DNA of 64,000 nucleotides, taken from contig NZ_CP107853.1 in the NCBI RefSeq assembly GCF_036013525.1, forward strand, positions 5,456,001-5,520,000. Reading direction: 5' to 3'. Both the position numbers and the translations under genes were made by a program. This DNA comes from Nonomuraea sp. NBC_00507 (GTDB lineage: Bacteria; Actinomycetota; Actinomycetes; Streptosporangiales; Streptosporangiaceae). Positions 22,721 to 46,127 of this stretch are shown here, in pieces. The notes below the pieces were generated by a model. That model was given only the letters and a program-made list of their open reading frames with translations, was not told where the DNA came from and made no database searches. Within the stretch, counting starts at the first letter, position 1; each line of letters opens with the position of its first letter.

Positions 22721-24247
22721 ATGGTTTCGGAAGACAGCCGGCTCATCGCCAGGCGCTACGAGTTAGTGCGCGAACTGGGCCGCGGGGGGATGGGCGTGGT
22801 CTGGGAAGGCCGGGACACGCTGCTCAACCGGCAGGTCGCCATCAAGGAAGTCGTGCTGCCCGACGGGCTGTCGCCCGGCGATCAGGAACGCCAGCTCATG
22901 CGCACCGTCCGCGAGGCCCGTACGGCCGCCAAGCTCAACCACCCGTCCGTCGTCGCCGTCTACGACGTCGTCGAGGAGGGTGGCCGCCCCTGGATCGTCA
23001 TGGAGCTGCTCAGTCACCCCACGGTCGAGCAGGTCGTGCTCGGCTCGGGAGCTCTGCCCGTGCGCGAGGCGGCCGACGTCGGCCGGCAGGTGTTGTCGGC
23101 GCTGAAGGCCGCCCACGCGGCCGGGATCCTGCACCGCGACGTCAAGCCCAGCAACATCCTCATCACCGACGACGGCCGCGCGGTCCTCACCGACTTCGGC
23201 ATCGCCACCGTCGAGGGCGACGCGTCGCTGACCAGGACCGGCATGGTCACCGGCTCGCCGAGCTTCCTCGCGCCGGAACGGGTCCGCGCCGCCGAGGCAG
23301 GACCGGCCTCCGACCTGTGGTCGCTGGGCGCCACGCTGTACGCGTGCATGGTGGGGCGCTCGCCGTTCGAGCGAGGCGACCCCATGGCGACGCTCAACGC
23401 GCTGCTCACCGAGGAGCCCGACTACCGGCGCATCCCGCCGATCATGCATCCGATCCTGCGCGGCCTGCTGCGCAAGGAGCCCGAGGAGCGGGTGGACGCC
23501 GAGGAGGCCGACCGGCTGCTCGCGGCCATCGTCGCGGCCAAGCCCGCCGCCGCCGACCGCGACGTGCCCGAGCGGAAGAGTGGCCGCGCGCGGGCGCTGC
23601 TCGCGGCGGGCGCGGCGGCGGTCGTCGTGATCGCGGGCGGCTCGGTCGCCTACTTCAAGCTCGCCACCCCCGCCGAAGGCGCGCCGCGCGCGACCGCTCT
23701 GCCCGCCGCGGCGACCAGTCCGCTCACGCCGAGCGCCACCCCCACGTCGGAGCCGACTGTCTCGCCCACGCCCAGCGTGACCCGGATGGCGCCGGTCGTA
23801 CGGGCGTGGACGTCGCCTGACGGCTGGTCGATCCTGCGGCCGGTCGGCTGGAAGGGCGCGCGGCGAGAGGCCGGCACCGAATGGACGCGCCGGGACAGGA
23901 ACGCCCATCTCGGCATCGAGGCCGTCTATTCCAACCTCGACGTCAACGAGCTCCTGCGCGCCTCGGAGGACACGATGCGGCAGAACGCCGAGCGCGTGGT
24001 GACCCGCGGCCGCCGCACCGTCACACACCAGGGCGTCAAGGGCGTGGAGTGGGAGTTCTCCTGGACGGCGGGCGCGGCGGGCGGGGCGCGGTGGGCCGCG
24101 GTCGGCACCCGCTACCGGGAGGTGCGCCGGGCCCTGGCGATCGGCGACACCGCGTACATCGTGTCCTGGACGGTCGCCGAGAACCAGTGGCCGCGCAACA
24201 GGGGACTGATGCGACAGGTGATCAGTAGCTTTACGGTGGGGGCATGA
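22721..24247 (+). CDS. Ser/Thr protein kinase with one transmembrane helix and extracellular domain
   Basis: 508 residues from ATG 22721 (AGGGGAC upstream). PknB-type kinase domain, residues 13-270: GRGGMG loop (20-25), VAIK (K42), HRDVKPSNIL catalytic loop, TDFGIATVEGD and a short APE-like LAPERVRA segment. Then a basic linker, one helix (ALLAAGAAAVVVIAGGSVAY), a Thr/Pro/Ser-rich spacer and an extracellular domain of about 150 residues (VRAWTSPDGWSILRPVGWKG). Overlaps the next gene by ATGA. It probably senses an envelope signal; no PASTA repeats are present. Confidence 0.92.
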   Translation: MVSEDSRLIARRYELVRELGRGGMGVVWEGRDTLLNRQVAIKEVVLPDGLSPGDQERQLMRTVREARTAAKLNHPSVVAVYDVVEEGGRPWIVMELLSHPTVEQVVLGSGALPVREAADVGRQVLSALKAAHAAGILHRDVKPSNILITDDGRAVLTDFGIATVEGDASLTRTGMVTGSPSFLAPERVRAAEAGPASDLWSLGATLYACMVGRSPFERGDPMATLNALLTEEPDYRRIPPIMHPILRGLLRKEPEERVDAEEADRLLAAIVAAKPAAADRDVPERKSGRARALLAAGAAAVVVIAGGSVAYFKLATPAEGAPRATALPAAATSPLTPSATPTSEPTVSPTPSVTRMAPVVRAWTSPDGWSILRPVGWKGARREAGTEWTRRDRNAHLGIEAVYSNLDVNELLRASEDTMRQNAERVVTRGRRTVTHQGVKGVEWEFSWTAGAAGGARWAAVGTRYREVRRALAIGDTAYIVSWTVAENQWPRNRGLMRQVISSFTVGA

Positions 24248-25227
24248 GGCCCTGGAACCTGCTCGCCCTGCCCCCGCTCCCGGAGGAGCTGATGCGGGGC
24301 CTGCTCGCCCCGCTGGGCGAGCGCGTGCACGTCCGCGTGCCCGCGGCCCGCGACAGGGACGCGCTCCTCGCGGCGCTGCCGGAGGCGGAGATCGTGCTCG
24401 GCGACTGGACGGGCACGCTCGTCATGGACGCGGCGGCGGTCGCGGCCGCGCCCCGGCTGGCTTTCGTGCAGCAGCCGTCCGTGGGCGTGGACGGTCATGA
24501 CCTCGGCGCCCTGGCCGCGGCCGGGGTGCCGCTGGCCAACACGCCCGGCGTCAGCGCCGTGGCGGTCTCGGAATGGTGCTTGGGTGCCACGCTCTCGCTG
24601 TCGCGCAAGCTCGCCGCGGCCGACGCCGCCGTACGCGCGGGCGAGTGGCCGCAGCAGGGCCTGCAGCCGCATGAGCTGCGCGGCCGCCGCGTCGGCATCG
24701 TCGGGTGGGGCCCGATCGGCCTCTCCTGCGCCGAGATCTTCCGGGCGCTCGGCTGTCACGTGACGTTCTGGACCCGCACGCCGCGCGAGGACCCCGCCTT
24801 CGAAGACCTGGAGACGCTCGTCTCCGGCAGCGACGTGGTGGTGGTCGTCATCGCGCTGTCCGACCAGACCCGCGACCTGATCGACCCGGCCCGCATGAAG
24901 CAGGGCGCCCTGCTCGTGAACGCCGCCCGAGGCGGTGTCGTCAACCAGCCGGCGCTGGTCACCGCGCTGCGTGAGGGGCATCTGGGGGGAGCGGCGCTGG
25001 ACGTGTTCGACGTCGAGCCGCTGCCCGCCGGCGACCCGCTGCGTGACCTGCCGAACGTCCTGCTGTCCCCGCACGTCGCCGGCGTCACCCCTGAGGCCAC
25101 CGGGCGGCTGCTGACCGCCACCCTCGCCAACCTGACCGCCGCCGTCGAGGGCCGCGAGGTGGACGCGGTGCTCAATGGCGTAGCGCCCATCGTGCGGAGG
25201 AAGTTTACGGAATCGTCTACCACATAG
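24244..25227 (+). CDS. D-2-hydroxyacid dehydrogenase
   Basis: 327 residues, starting inside the kinase stop (ATGA), so translation is coupled. NAD-binding domain: RRVGIVGWGPIGLSCAEIF, then an Arg-containing TRTPREDPAF loop after beta-2. Catalytic residues are visible: Arg in NAARGGVVNQPALV, Glu in DVFDVEPLPAGDPL and His in NVLLSPHVAGVTPE. The family oxidises D-2-hydroxyacids or reduces 2-ketoacids (glyoxylate/hydroxypyruvate reductase and PGDH relatives). Substrate not determinable. Confidence 0.9.
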   Translation: MRPWNLLALPPLPEELMRGLLAPLGERVHVRVPAARDRDALLAALPEAEIVLGDWTGTLVMDAAAVAAAPRLAFVQQPSVGVDGHDLGALAAAGVPLANTPGVSAVAVSEWCLGATLSLSRKLAAADAAVRAGEWPQQGLQPHELRGRRVGIVGWGPIGLSCAEIFRALGCHVTFWTRTPREDPAFEDLETLVSGSDVVVVVIALSDQTRDLIDPARMKQGALLVNAARGGVVNQPALVTALREGHLGGAALDVFDVEPLPAGDPLRDLPNVLLSPHVAGVTPEATGRLLTATLANLTAAVEGREVDAVLNGVAPIVRRKFTESSTT

Positions 25228-43213: not shown

Positions 43214-43552
43214 TGCTGCCGGCCCTCCCGAAGTTGTGTCCGGATCAACCCTTATATCCGGATTTGACGTACCAGGCATGATCTCATGGGATTTTCCAGG
43301 AGATGCCGGTGGTTCCGCAGCGAAACGAGTGAAGCCATGAGGATCGGTGGGCGGATCCTGCAAGGGCAGGCCGTCCTCCGGTCGATCAGGCTTAGCTCGG
43401 TACACCACGGCGACAAGGGTATTCTTGAGGGACGAATGAGGTCACAACGGATACATCACCATCAGGTCTCGCTGGACCTGAAGGGTCCATTGTGCATGCG
43501 CACCTCGATCGAGAACCTGCATTCATCCGAAGAGGTGCGCTAGGCTTGACAC

Positions 43553-43597
43553 ATGCGTTCCGCGACCCTGCTTCTTAGCGGGCCGCGACGGCCCTGA
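43553..43597 (+). CDS. leuS leader peptide (candidate)
   Basis: ATG 43553 encodes [14 protein letters not shown], with three consecutive Leu codons CTG-CTT-CTT; CTT is rare in this genome. A plausible -10 (TAGGCT, 43541-43546) sits six bases before the ATG, suggesting leaderless translation. Hairpins and a T-run follow before leuS. This is the arrangement of ribosome-mediated attenuation by leucyl-tRNA supply. The preceding interval 43214-43552 shows no convincing gene. Confidence 0.65.
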
Positions 43598-43646
43598 GAT
43601 CTCGCCGTCGCGGCTACCCCTCGTCGTGTGCACGGGGGGTTTTCTT
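43560..43646 (+). promoter_or_regulatory. Candidate transcription attenuator before leuS
   Basis: Hairpin A pairs 43582-43592 with 43604-43614 (11 bp, core GCCGCGACGGC). An overlapping weaker stem pairs CCGC 43560-43563 with GCGG 43579-43582. A terminator-like element follows: CCCC 43617-43620 and CGTG 43625-43628 pair with CACG 43631-43634 and the following G run, then TTTTCTT (43640-43646). Stalling at the Leu codons would cover the first stem and change folding of the rest. Exact alternative pairing needs folding analysis. Confidence 0.6.
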
Positions 43647-43679
43647 ATGGGTCCGAATCAAGCCAGAAGGACAGTAGCC

Positions 43680-46127
43680 GTGAGTGAGTACGACCCGCAG
43701 GCGCTGCAGGCCAAGTGGCTGCAGCGCTGGGAGGAGCAGGAGCCCTTCCGGGCGAGCGAAGAGCCCGCCGACCCCCGCGAGCGGCGCTACATGCTCGACA
43801 TGTTCCCCTACCCGTCGGGTGACCTCCACATGGGCCACGGCGAGGTGTTCGCCATCGGCGACGTCGTCGCGCGCTACTGGATGCAAAAGGGCTACAACGT
43901 CCTGCACCCGATCGGCTGGGACTCCTTCGGCCTGCCCGCGGAGAACGCCGCGATCAAGCGCAACGCCCACCCGGCCGAGTGGACCTACGCCAACATCGAG
44001 ACGCAGGCGCACTCGTTCAAGCGCTACGGGATCTCCTTCGACTGGTCGCGCCGCCTGCACACGAGCGACCCCGACTACTACCGCTGGAACCAGTGGCTGT
44101 TCAACCGCTTCTTCGAGCGTGGCCTGGCCTACCGCAAGGGCGGCCTGGTCAACTGGTGCCCCAACGACCAGACGGTGCTGGCCAACGAGCAGGTCGTGGC
44201 CGGAAAGTGCGAGCGCTGCGGCGCCGACGTCATCCGCCGCGAGCTGACGCAGTGGTACTTCAAGATCACTGACTACGCGCAGCGGCTGCTGGACGACATG
44301 GACCAGCTGACCGGCTGGCCGGAGCGGCTGCTGACCATGCAGCGCAACTGGATCGGCCGCTCCGAGGGCGCCGACGTGCTGTTCACGATCGAGGGCCGCG
44401 AGGAGCCGGTCCACGTCTACACGACGCGGCCCGACACGCTGTTCGGGGCCACGTTCTTCGTGGTCGCCGCGGACGCGGCGCTGGCCGACGAGATCGTCAC
44501 CGACGAGTGGCGGGAAGCGTTCGAGGCCTACCGCACCGAGGTGGCCCGGCTGAGCGACATCGAGCGCCTGGCCACGGACAAGGAGAAGACCGGCGTCTTC
44601 CTGGGCCGCTACGCGATCAACCCGGTCAACGGCGAGCGCATCCCGGTCTGGGCGGCCGACTACGTGCTGTCCGACTACGGCCACGGCGCCATCATGGCCG
44701 TGCCCGCTCACGACCAGCGCGACCTGGACTTCGCGCTGAAGTTCGACCTGCCAGTGAAGGTGGTCGTGCACACCGGCCTGGCCGACCCGGGCGAGACCGG
44801 CGAGGCCACGCCCGGCGAGGGCACGCTGGTCAACTCCGGCCCGCTGGACGGGCTGGAGAAGGCCGAGGCCATCCGCAAGATCATCGAGGTCTTGGAGGCC
44901 GAGGGCAAGGGCACGGGCGCGATCAACTTCCGGCTGCGCGACTGGCTGCTGTCCCGGCAGCGTTACTGGGGCACGCCGATCCCGATCATTCACTGCCCCG
45001 ACTGTGGCGAGGTCCCCGTCCCCGACGAGCAGCTGCCCGTCACGCTGCCCGACCTGCGCGGCGAGGCGCTGTCGCCCAAGGGCGTGTCCCCGCTGGCCAG
45101 TGCTACCGACTGGGTCAACGTCGAGTGCCCCAAGTGCGGCGGACGCGCCCAGCGCGACACCGACACGATGGACACGTTCGTCGACTCGTCCTGGTATTTC
45201 CTGCGTTACTGCTCGCCGGGCTACACCGACGGCCCGTTCGACGTCGAGCAGGTGCGCAAGTGGGGCCCGATCGACCAATATGTCGGCGGCATCGAGCACG
45301 CGGTGCTGCACCTGCTCTACTCCCGGTTCTTCACCAAGGTCCTGCACGACATGGGCATGCTGGACTTCAGCGAGCCCTTCCAACGCATGCTGAACCAGGG
45401 GCAGGTGATCAACGGCGGCAAGGCCATGTCGAAGTCCCTGGGCAATGGCGTGGACCTGGGCCAGCAGATCGACGACTTCGGCGTCGACGCCGTACGCCTG
45501 ACCATGGTGTTCGCCGGGCCGCCCGAGGACGACATCGACTGGGCGGACGTCTCGCCGCTGGCCTCGCAGAAGTTCCTGGCCCGGGCCCTGCGCGTGATGT
45601 CGGAGGTGACCAGCGAGCCCGGCGTGGCAGTCGAGGGCGGCGACGTCGAGCTGCGCAAGGTCACCCACCGCACGATCGACGAGGTCACCCGGCAGATCGA
45701 CTCCTACAAGTTCAACGTGGCAGTGGCGCGGATGATGGAGCTGACCTCGGCCGCGCGGCGGGCCATCGACGTGGGCCCCGGCCCCGCCGACCCCGCCGTC
45801 CGTGAGGCTGCGGAGACGCTGGCGATCATGCTGTCACTGGTGGCTCCCTATACCGCCGAGGAGGGCTGGGAGCGGCTGGGCCGCACCGGCCCCGTCGCCT
45901 TCGGCGGGTGGCCGAGCGCCGACCCCGTGCTGCTGGTGCAGGAGTCGGTCACCTGCGTGGTGCAGGTGGCGGGCAAGGTGCGTGACCGGCTGGAGGTGTC
46001 GCCGGACATCACCGAGCAGGAGCTGCGGGAGCTGGCCCTGGCCTCAGAGAAGGTGTCCGCCTACCTGACGGGCATGCCCCGCAAGGTGATCGTCCGGGCG
46101 CCCAAGCTGGTCAACATCGTCCCGTAG
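43680..46127 (+). CDS. leuS: Leucyl-tRNA synthetase
   Basis: 815 residues from GTG 43680 (AGAAGGA upstream); the frame is open 5' through the leader but homology starts at [20 protein letters not shown]. Class I motif HMGH (residues 50-53), editing domain with [20 protein letters not shown], zinc-type [25 protein letters not shown], and the KMSKS loop as [12 protein letters not shown]. Anticodon-binding domain and C-terminal [15 protein letters not shown] are complete. Attaches leucine to tRNA-Leu in the cytoplasm. Probably controlled by the leader at 43553-43646. Confidence 0.97.

Follow-up and report, generated by a model that had tools for sequence, protein, structure and literature searches.

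The window studied here, a 64-kb stretch of the 12.9-Mb genome of Nonomuraea sp. NBC_00507, carries the gene of a leucyl-tRNA synthetase (leuS) whose product is recognized by the profile TIGR00396 (938.7 bits, cut-off 548.4) and shares 96% identity over its N-terminal region with the LeuS of Nonomuraea basaltis. The leader in front of this gene, bounded upstream by an opposite-strand ORF, contains what a first-pass annotation had described as a leucine-codon leader peptide, an 11-bp hairpin and a C/G stem with a T-rich tail. These elements are all in place, i.e., a 14-codon ORF with the codons CTG CTT CTT at 43568-43576 and the two stems with the tail at 43582-43614 and 43616-43647, respectively. 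In window coordinates, the features are:

43541-43546, + strand: -10-like element TAGGCT at leaderless distance, six bases upstream of the leader ATG and equally spaced in relatives
43553-43597, + strand: leader ORF of 14 codons, with ATG at 43553 and stop codon TGA at 43595-43597; similar leuS leaders occur elsewhere
43568-43576, + strand: Leu codons CTG (43568), CTT (43571) and CTT (43574), read from the sequence
43574-43576, + strand: last Leu codon, CTT, ending 5 nt before hairpin 1
43582-43592, + strand: 5' arm of hairpin 1, GCCGCGACGGC, supported by covariation
43604-43614, + strand: 3' arm of hairpin 1, GCCGTCGCGGC, supported by covariation
43616-43640, + strand: terminator-like hairpin, ACCCCTCGT-CGTGTGC-ACGGGGGGT, from terminator scan and covariation
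43641-43647, + strand: U-rich tail TTTCTTA, from sequence and terminator scan
43665-43671, + strand: probable Shine-Dalgarno sequence AGAAGGA of leuS, by inspection
43680-46127, + strand: leuS, leucyl-tRNA synthetase of 815 aa, starting with GTG at 43680 (TIGR00396)

The stem of hairpin 1 is perfect over its 11 bp, and a single spacer base separates it from the terminator-like stem, which was found by the terminator scan together with the tail TTTCTTATGG (one found, against a mean of 0.1 in shuffled sequences); the U tract behind this stem is interrupted. Folded as a single sequence, the leader is only moderately unusual (z -2.25, with 6 of 200 shuffles as good), and the weight of the argument therefore rests on comparison. 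No Rfam family, T-box included, matches at the gathering threshold in the 64-kb window, nor at E <= 1 in 43450-43750. As to the promoter, the -10 element at leaderless distance noticed in the first-pass annotation does lie 6 nt before the ATG, with a TANNNT spacing that is common in relatives, but its description as good found no echo in the promoter scan, in which a stricter two-hexamer rule gave no sigma-70-type promoter before leuS. Because of this empty scan, the assignment of the -10 element rests on the TANNNT spacing and on the relatives.

Two covariance models were used for the comparison. Model R1 includes the window's own leader (as L082), which makes its scores at this site circular. 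Model R2 was built from 45 leaders, Streptomyces-type ones among them and none from the GTDB family of the window; it recognizes the site with 67.9 bits, which in a genome-wide search corresponds to E 2.6e-15, and its sole other match at E <= 1 in this genome precedes cimA. A weak R1 match at 24232-24331 of the window (18.5 bits), at a leaderless-looking ORF start, is absent with R2 at E <= 10 and was judged to be due to chance. An alignment of 50 leaders (52 chosen, L113 and L151 omitted) contains two helices in which 12 of 18 pairs show double-sided changes and 91 cells covary, compared to 24.5 in shuffled alignments, none of 500 being as high; shifting the partner by 1-3 columns lowers pairing from 95.9% to 39-56%. 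The window's family was excluded from a second alignment of 45 leaders (50 chosen; omitted were L252, L053, L262 and L263 as well as L279, whose terminator is visible by eye and was missed by the script), which gives 52 covarying cells versus 10.2, again with 0 of 500 shuffles as high. Hairpin 1 is strong throughout (mean z -4.84, below -2 in all 50 leaders of the first alignment), its base GCCGC/GCGGC being almost invariant while the upper stem varies with compensation, and the gap between the two stems is 1 nt in 43 of these 50 leaders and 0-3 nt in the rest. The Leu run and both stems, on whose conservation in relatives the first-pass annotation had let its proposal depend, are thus conserved with compensatory changes. 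An ordinary promoter followed by an ORF that arose by chance and by a terminator for transcripts coming from upstream, with no regulator involved, would fit the fact that the single-sequence fold beats shuffles only moderately; set against the E-value of the independent model, the covariation and the conservation of codons and spacing, this reading is scarcely credible. From comparison of sequences, the leader, its codon choice, the fixed spacing, both hairpins and the position before leuS all emerge as conserved, and on this evidence the leuS leader of Nonomuraea sp. NBC_00507 is a real, conserved leucine attenuator-like element.

Short ORFs with Leu-Leu-Leu near their start occur in 106 of the 187 leuS upstream regions examined, after three spurious matches (L067, L072 and L094) had been dropped from 109 before all leader counts. 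They comprise 50 of 80 named loci, these being the best-scoring 80, and 56 of 107 loci of the GTDB family, the other 51 being without such a leader (the family loci number 110, and the script did not place leuS of L101, L102 and L111). All ten Nonomuraea loci, that of the window included, have it (L002-L007 and L082-L085), and no such leuS leader is present in the Nocardiopsis, Thermobifida, Marinitenerispora and Streptomonospora loci of the named set. Of the 106 leaders, 105 have a TANNNT motif 6 or 7 nt upstream of the chosen start, a figure to be read with the way in which these were picked, i.e., as short ORFs with Leu-Leu-Leu within the first codons and with preference for starts preceded by TANNNT. 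By inspection, the leuS leader looks decayed in Planotetraspora and Microbispora (L009 and L010), where CTGCTT-like codons and the promoter are kept without an in-frame start.

On a wider scale, R1 matches at E <= 1e-3, counted before any gene, occur in 246 of 394 genomes of the class, covering 108 of 137 genera, and in 32 of 396 genomes of the phylum. Among 96 R1-matched loci, i.e., the top matches together with a diverse set chosen by hand, leuS is the best downstream match in 84, of which 45 carry one lineage of LeuS and 39 another; the remaining 12 have a leuA-like gene (8), ilvB (2), leuC (1) or none (1). The leaders obtained in this way were pre-selected for similarity and partly also for TANNNT and a GCCG-like motif. 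Three of the eight leuA-like genes (L250, L253 and L256) resemble genes of citramalate synthases, L250 scoring 551.8 bits against TIGR00977 (cut-off 450). What had been a prediction for two Streptomyces species hence becomes an element spread over many families of the class.

Within these leaders one codon holds a fixed place. In 150 distinct leuS leaders, which are not independent because many come from closely related genomes, hairpin 1 is preceded at a distance of exactly 5 nt by CTT in 141 cases and by CTC in the other 9. Outside this set stand L213 and L273, whose leaders were missed by the script and are visible by eye (the last Leu codon of L213 being CTC), and L221, in which no leader was seen. 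CTT had been called rare, and rightly so, since it serves for 0 of the 67 Leu codons of leuS in Nonomuraea sp. NBC_00507 and for 31 of 2662 (1.2%) in the leuS stretches of 84 loci, where CTC reaches 11.2%. Likewise, 97 of the 106 leaders use CTT, and 9 use CTC, as the third codon of Leu-Leu-Leu; counted backwards, the third-last Leu codon of a run is mostly CTG and the second-last is mixed. Three leaders have a run of four Leu codons that stops 2 nt short of the stem, with CTT still occupying the 5-nt position, and the six leaders with fewer than three Leu codons all have CTT as the last one. Examples of shortened runs that keep the last Leu are VASQQQRLIGPR, VAHQQLLVGPR, MTRRQLLPEPR and MYGELLVEPR. 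The stop codon starts at more varied distances from the start of CTT (6 nt in 43 leaders, 15 nt in 75 and 18-33 nt in 32). The spacing of 5 nt leans on the motif that defines the start of the stem, since it was measured by a search for this motif within 12 nt; the covariation of the stem is independent of the motif. If tRNA-Leu(GAG) serves both CUU and CUC, the preference for CTT over CTC does not stem from a different isoacceptor; slow wobble decoding may underlie it. CUU or CUC at one exact place amounts to a quantitative rule that is testable by a single codon change in Streptomyces. Special Leu codons in leaders are known as such, as described for the selective-charging theory and the CUA-to-CUG exchange in Salmonella in PMC1183508.

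We consider it highly probable that the leuS leader is a ribosome-mediated transcription attenuator that responds to leucyl-tRNA. In the model that we infer for its leaderless start, stalling, termination and sense of regulation, the A of the leader ATG would be the start of transcription and the ribosome would load at the extreme 5' end of the transcript. With plentiful leucyl-tRNA the 14 codons would be completed and the ribosome would depart, upon which hairpin 1 and the terminator could form and most transcripts would stop before leuS. When leucyl-tRNA is scarce, the ribosome would stall on the Leu run, chiefly at the last CTT. The footprint of a ribosome reaches about 9 nt beyond the A-site codon, and the leading edge of the stalled ribosome would lie over the spacer of 5 nt and reach 4-5 nt into the conserved GCCGC base. 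Hairpin 1 would then open from its base and RNA polymerase would continue into leuS. Termination after this opening might be blocked either by a weak helix of 5-6 bp, formed by its 3' arm with the loop of the terminator, or because termination is efficient only in the presence of hairpin 1. Stalling does not follow from the right codons as such, because codon changes in two leaders of S. coelicolor did not fit it: according to PMC1262725, those in the ilvB leader were without effect and those in the leuA leader had an effect unlike that of classical attenuation (Craster 1999).

The first-pass annotation had spoken of classical attenuation by charged tRNA-Leu. The leucine leader, the hairpin and the terminator before leuS bear this out, while the word classical is not established, as no antiterminator helix above chance was found. 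In a trp-type scheme, the 3' arm CGCGGC would pair with the terminator loop GTCGTG, and this true 2:3 antiterminator would prevail kinetically while the last arm is still to be transcribed. In the window, the best fold of this stretch contains such a 6-bp helix, pairs resembling GCGCGG/CTGTGC are seen repeatedly in leaders of the Streptomyces type and of Actinomadura, and antiterminators were underlined for two Streptomyces leuS leaders in 2005 (PMC1262725). However, the statistic used to detect it, i.e., the z of the stretch bounded by the 3' arm of hairpin 1 and the loop of the terminator, averages +0.70 in 50 leaders, none being below -1, and +0.33 in 45 outside leaders, four being below -1 and none below -2, with -0.65 for the window; when the stretch is extended over the loop of hairpin 1, the mean is +0.34, 2 of 45 leaders lie below -2 and the window reaches +0.57. 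Applied to E. coli leaders, the statistic yields -3.33 for trpL but only -1.70 for leuL, so that its power is limited. The 2:3 energies between arm 2 and the loop (-5.70) are weaker than those of swapped (-6.52) and shuffled (-6.58) controls, and in some leaders the loop spoils the helix by eye (CATAGTT in L056, CTGAGC in L226). The alternative folds proposed for inspection in the first-pass annotation hence yielded no antiterminator above chance that would exclude the terminator. Equilibrium folding with a masked footprint, in which the probability of the terminator has a median of 1.0 and is below 0.5 in 5 of 50 leaders (the alignment register explaining at least some of them), was discarded and carries no weight here, because it has no power: E. 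coli trpL and leuL keep their terminators in it as well.

Because the competing helix is not visible, we question whether the leuS leaders are classical attenuators, and the 2:3 scheme, which is not established for them, seems to us possible and on balance doubtful. Either a weak helix suffices kinetically, or the opening of hairpin 1 by itself lowers termination. In the latter case, hairpin 1 would be part of the terminator and boost termination by stacking, so that a stalled ribosome opening it would need no antiterminator. The tight juxtaposition of the two stems and the strength of hairpin 1 in every aligned leader agree with this, as do the nearly invariant stem base at the place that a ribosome on CTT would reach and the lack of a competing helix above chance. 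A precedent cited in PMC8269248 is a hairpin upstream of the terminator that L4-mediated control of the S10 operon is reported to require (Zengel and Lindahl 1996). The invariant base could, however, also reflect selection for stability, and we regard a stacked hairpin 1 as a real possibility that falls somewhat short of an even chance.

Control at the level of translation was weighed as well. Here the Leu run would pair with the Shine-Dalgarno sequence of leuS, in the way suggested for the LEU element of leuA, and a stalled ribosome would set the Shine-Dalgarno sequence free. A CTTCT/AGAAG pairing can be drawn in the window, and over 178 pairs the Leu run pairs with its own Shine-Dalgarno sequence at -11.33, compared to -10.81 (sd 0.08) for swapped and -10.35 (sd 0.16) for shuffled partners, an excess part of which may be kinship. 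By codon, however, the pairing is -11.15 with CTT, -12.68 with CTC and -11.93 with CTG; because CTT pairs more weakly than CTC or CTG, such pairing does not explain its use, and as a cause of CTT it was rejected for a small excess in the wrong direction. Moreover, Leu runs of the window type pair at only -7.0 (L002-L004), and the conserved terminator sits between the run and the Shine-Dalgarno sequence, all of which makes translational control improbable.

Attenuation of leuS by leucine is known in outline from Streptomyces, which answers the question of the first-pass annotation whether the leuS case had been described: classical attenuators were predicted before leuS of S. avermitilis and S. 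coelicolor in 2005 (PMC1262725), and LeuL2 of S. lividans (MRAVRLLLSEPR) was reported in 2021 as leaderless and followed by a hairpin and a U stretch (PMC8079986). No further report of a leuS leader was recognized in the literature searched; Lopatovskaya et al. 2010 (Mol Biol 44:128) may list more actinobacterial ones. Like the Streptomyces attenuators of these reports, the element of the window has a short Leu-Leu-Leu-Ser...Pro-Arg ORF, a hairpin and a U stretch before leuS, and by its sequence it combines a Leu-run ORF before leuS, recognition by R2 and a predicted Rho-independent terminator after the ORF; leaders identical to LeuL2 were found before a second lineage of LeuS. The element of the window differs in preceding the other LeuS lineage (~41% identical), 14 codons instead of 12 and a shorter loop of hairpin 1, and the antiterminator could not be confirmed in the present leaders. 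As far as the literature was seen, the fixed position of CTT, the two LeuS lineages, the missing antiterminator signal and the wide spread in the class are new details.

With the E. coli leu and trp attenuators the leuS leader shares a leader peptide with control codons, a stem behind it and a terminator, and with leuL also special Leu codons (CTA four times there). The E. coli systems control biosynthetic operons, whereas here a synthetase gene is concerned, the start is probably leaderless and no 2:3 helix above chance is seen. The actinobacterial LEU element, which precedes leuA while that of the window precedes leuS, likewise has a Leu-run leader followed by a GC-rich hairpin, and R1 weakly finds leuA leaders (L217-L219); it is described as a pseudoknot in which Leu codons pair with the leuA Shine-Dalgarno sequence, where the leuS leader has a terminator-like hairpin (PMC1262725). 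The T-box leaders of actinobacterial ileS described in the same paper also place a synthetase gene under the control of its amino acid or tRNA; unlike these, the window has no match to T-box or any other Rfam family.

The element is common to two distant lineages of LeuS, the synthetase of the window being ~41% identical to those of the second lineage (39.7-42.5% in 15 loci). Second-lineage leaders include the LeuL2 sequence MRAVRLLLSEPR, with the codons CTT CTG CTT. When the neighbourhoods of 13 loci, twelve fetched ones and the window, were compared, eight shared two groups of downstream neighbours with ComEA-like and ComEC-like proteins; of these eight, five belong to the second lineage (L290, L292, L293, L295 and L297) and three to that of the window (L291, L294 and L299); a DegV protein is shared too in seven of the eight, all except L299. 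Names were given by Pfam to the neighbours in L290 and L291 and by BLAST clustering to the others. In the compared stretches these ComEA/ComEC-like neighbours are not common to the window, L296, L298, L300 and L301. The same neighbours behind both lineages point to an exchange of the synthetase gene in place; in several genomes, a regulatory RNA is common to two distant LeuS lineages at one locus.

The second R2 match in Nonomuraea sp. NBC_00507 (E 2.1e-6) is a sister element before cimA, a citramalate synthase-like gene (L335 1501-1609, i.e., G000:C1:4252688-4252796; further loci of this kind are among L302-L331). It has an ORF MFYGLLIIDRRAG with Leu-Leu-Ile-Ile codons, a long hairpin and a terminator-like hairpin, and suggests an isoleucine-type attenuator on cimA. 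In a motif-based search, short ORFs with adjacent Ile codons precede cimA in 26 of 29 further loci, these being the best matches from 148 genomes. A cimA leader is not among the eight S. lividans leader peptides in PMC8079986, and an isoleucine-type cimA attenuator was not found in the literature searched. Leaders of like layout, with Ile runs or Ile/Leu/Val codons, stand before the cimA-like genes of L253, L256 and L250 (VHRTTIIIS, VQSALIIT and MPSQVLIIVRRAG, respectively) and before ilvB of another actinomycete (L255, VRVITLVLRGRAG).

A broader reading, which we put forward tentatively and with rather low confidence, is that of a general actinobacterial attenuator module (leuS and cimA, more weakly leuA, leuC and ilvB) that works without an antiterminator: CUU, as a single slow codon read by wobble and placed exactly 5 nt before hairpin 1, would determine the stopping point of the ribosome, whose leading edge would unzip the invariant stem base, hairpin 1 would be needed for termination, and the module would have stayed while the synthetase gene behind it gave way to one of a distant LeuS lineage.

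Two further loci are of note. In L216 a Leu leader, VLIARLLLSGRDES, lies directly before a leuC-like gene (named by inspection), and genome G672 contains both LeuS lineages, each with its own Leu leader (L251 and L252).
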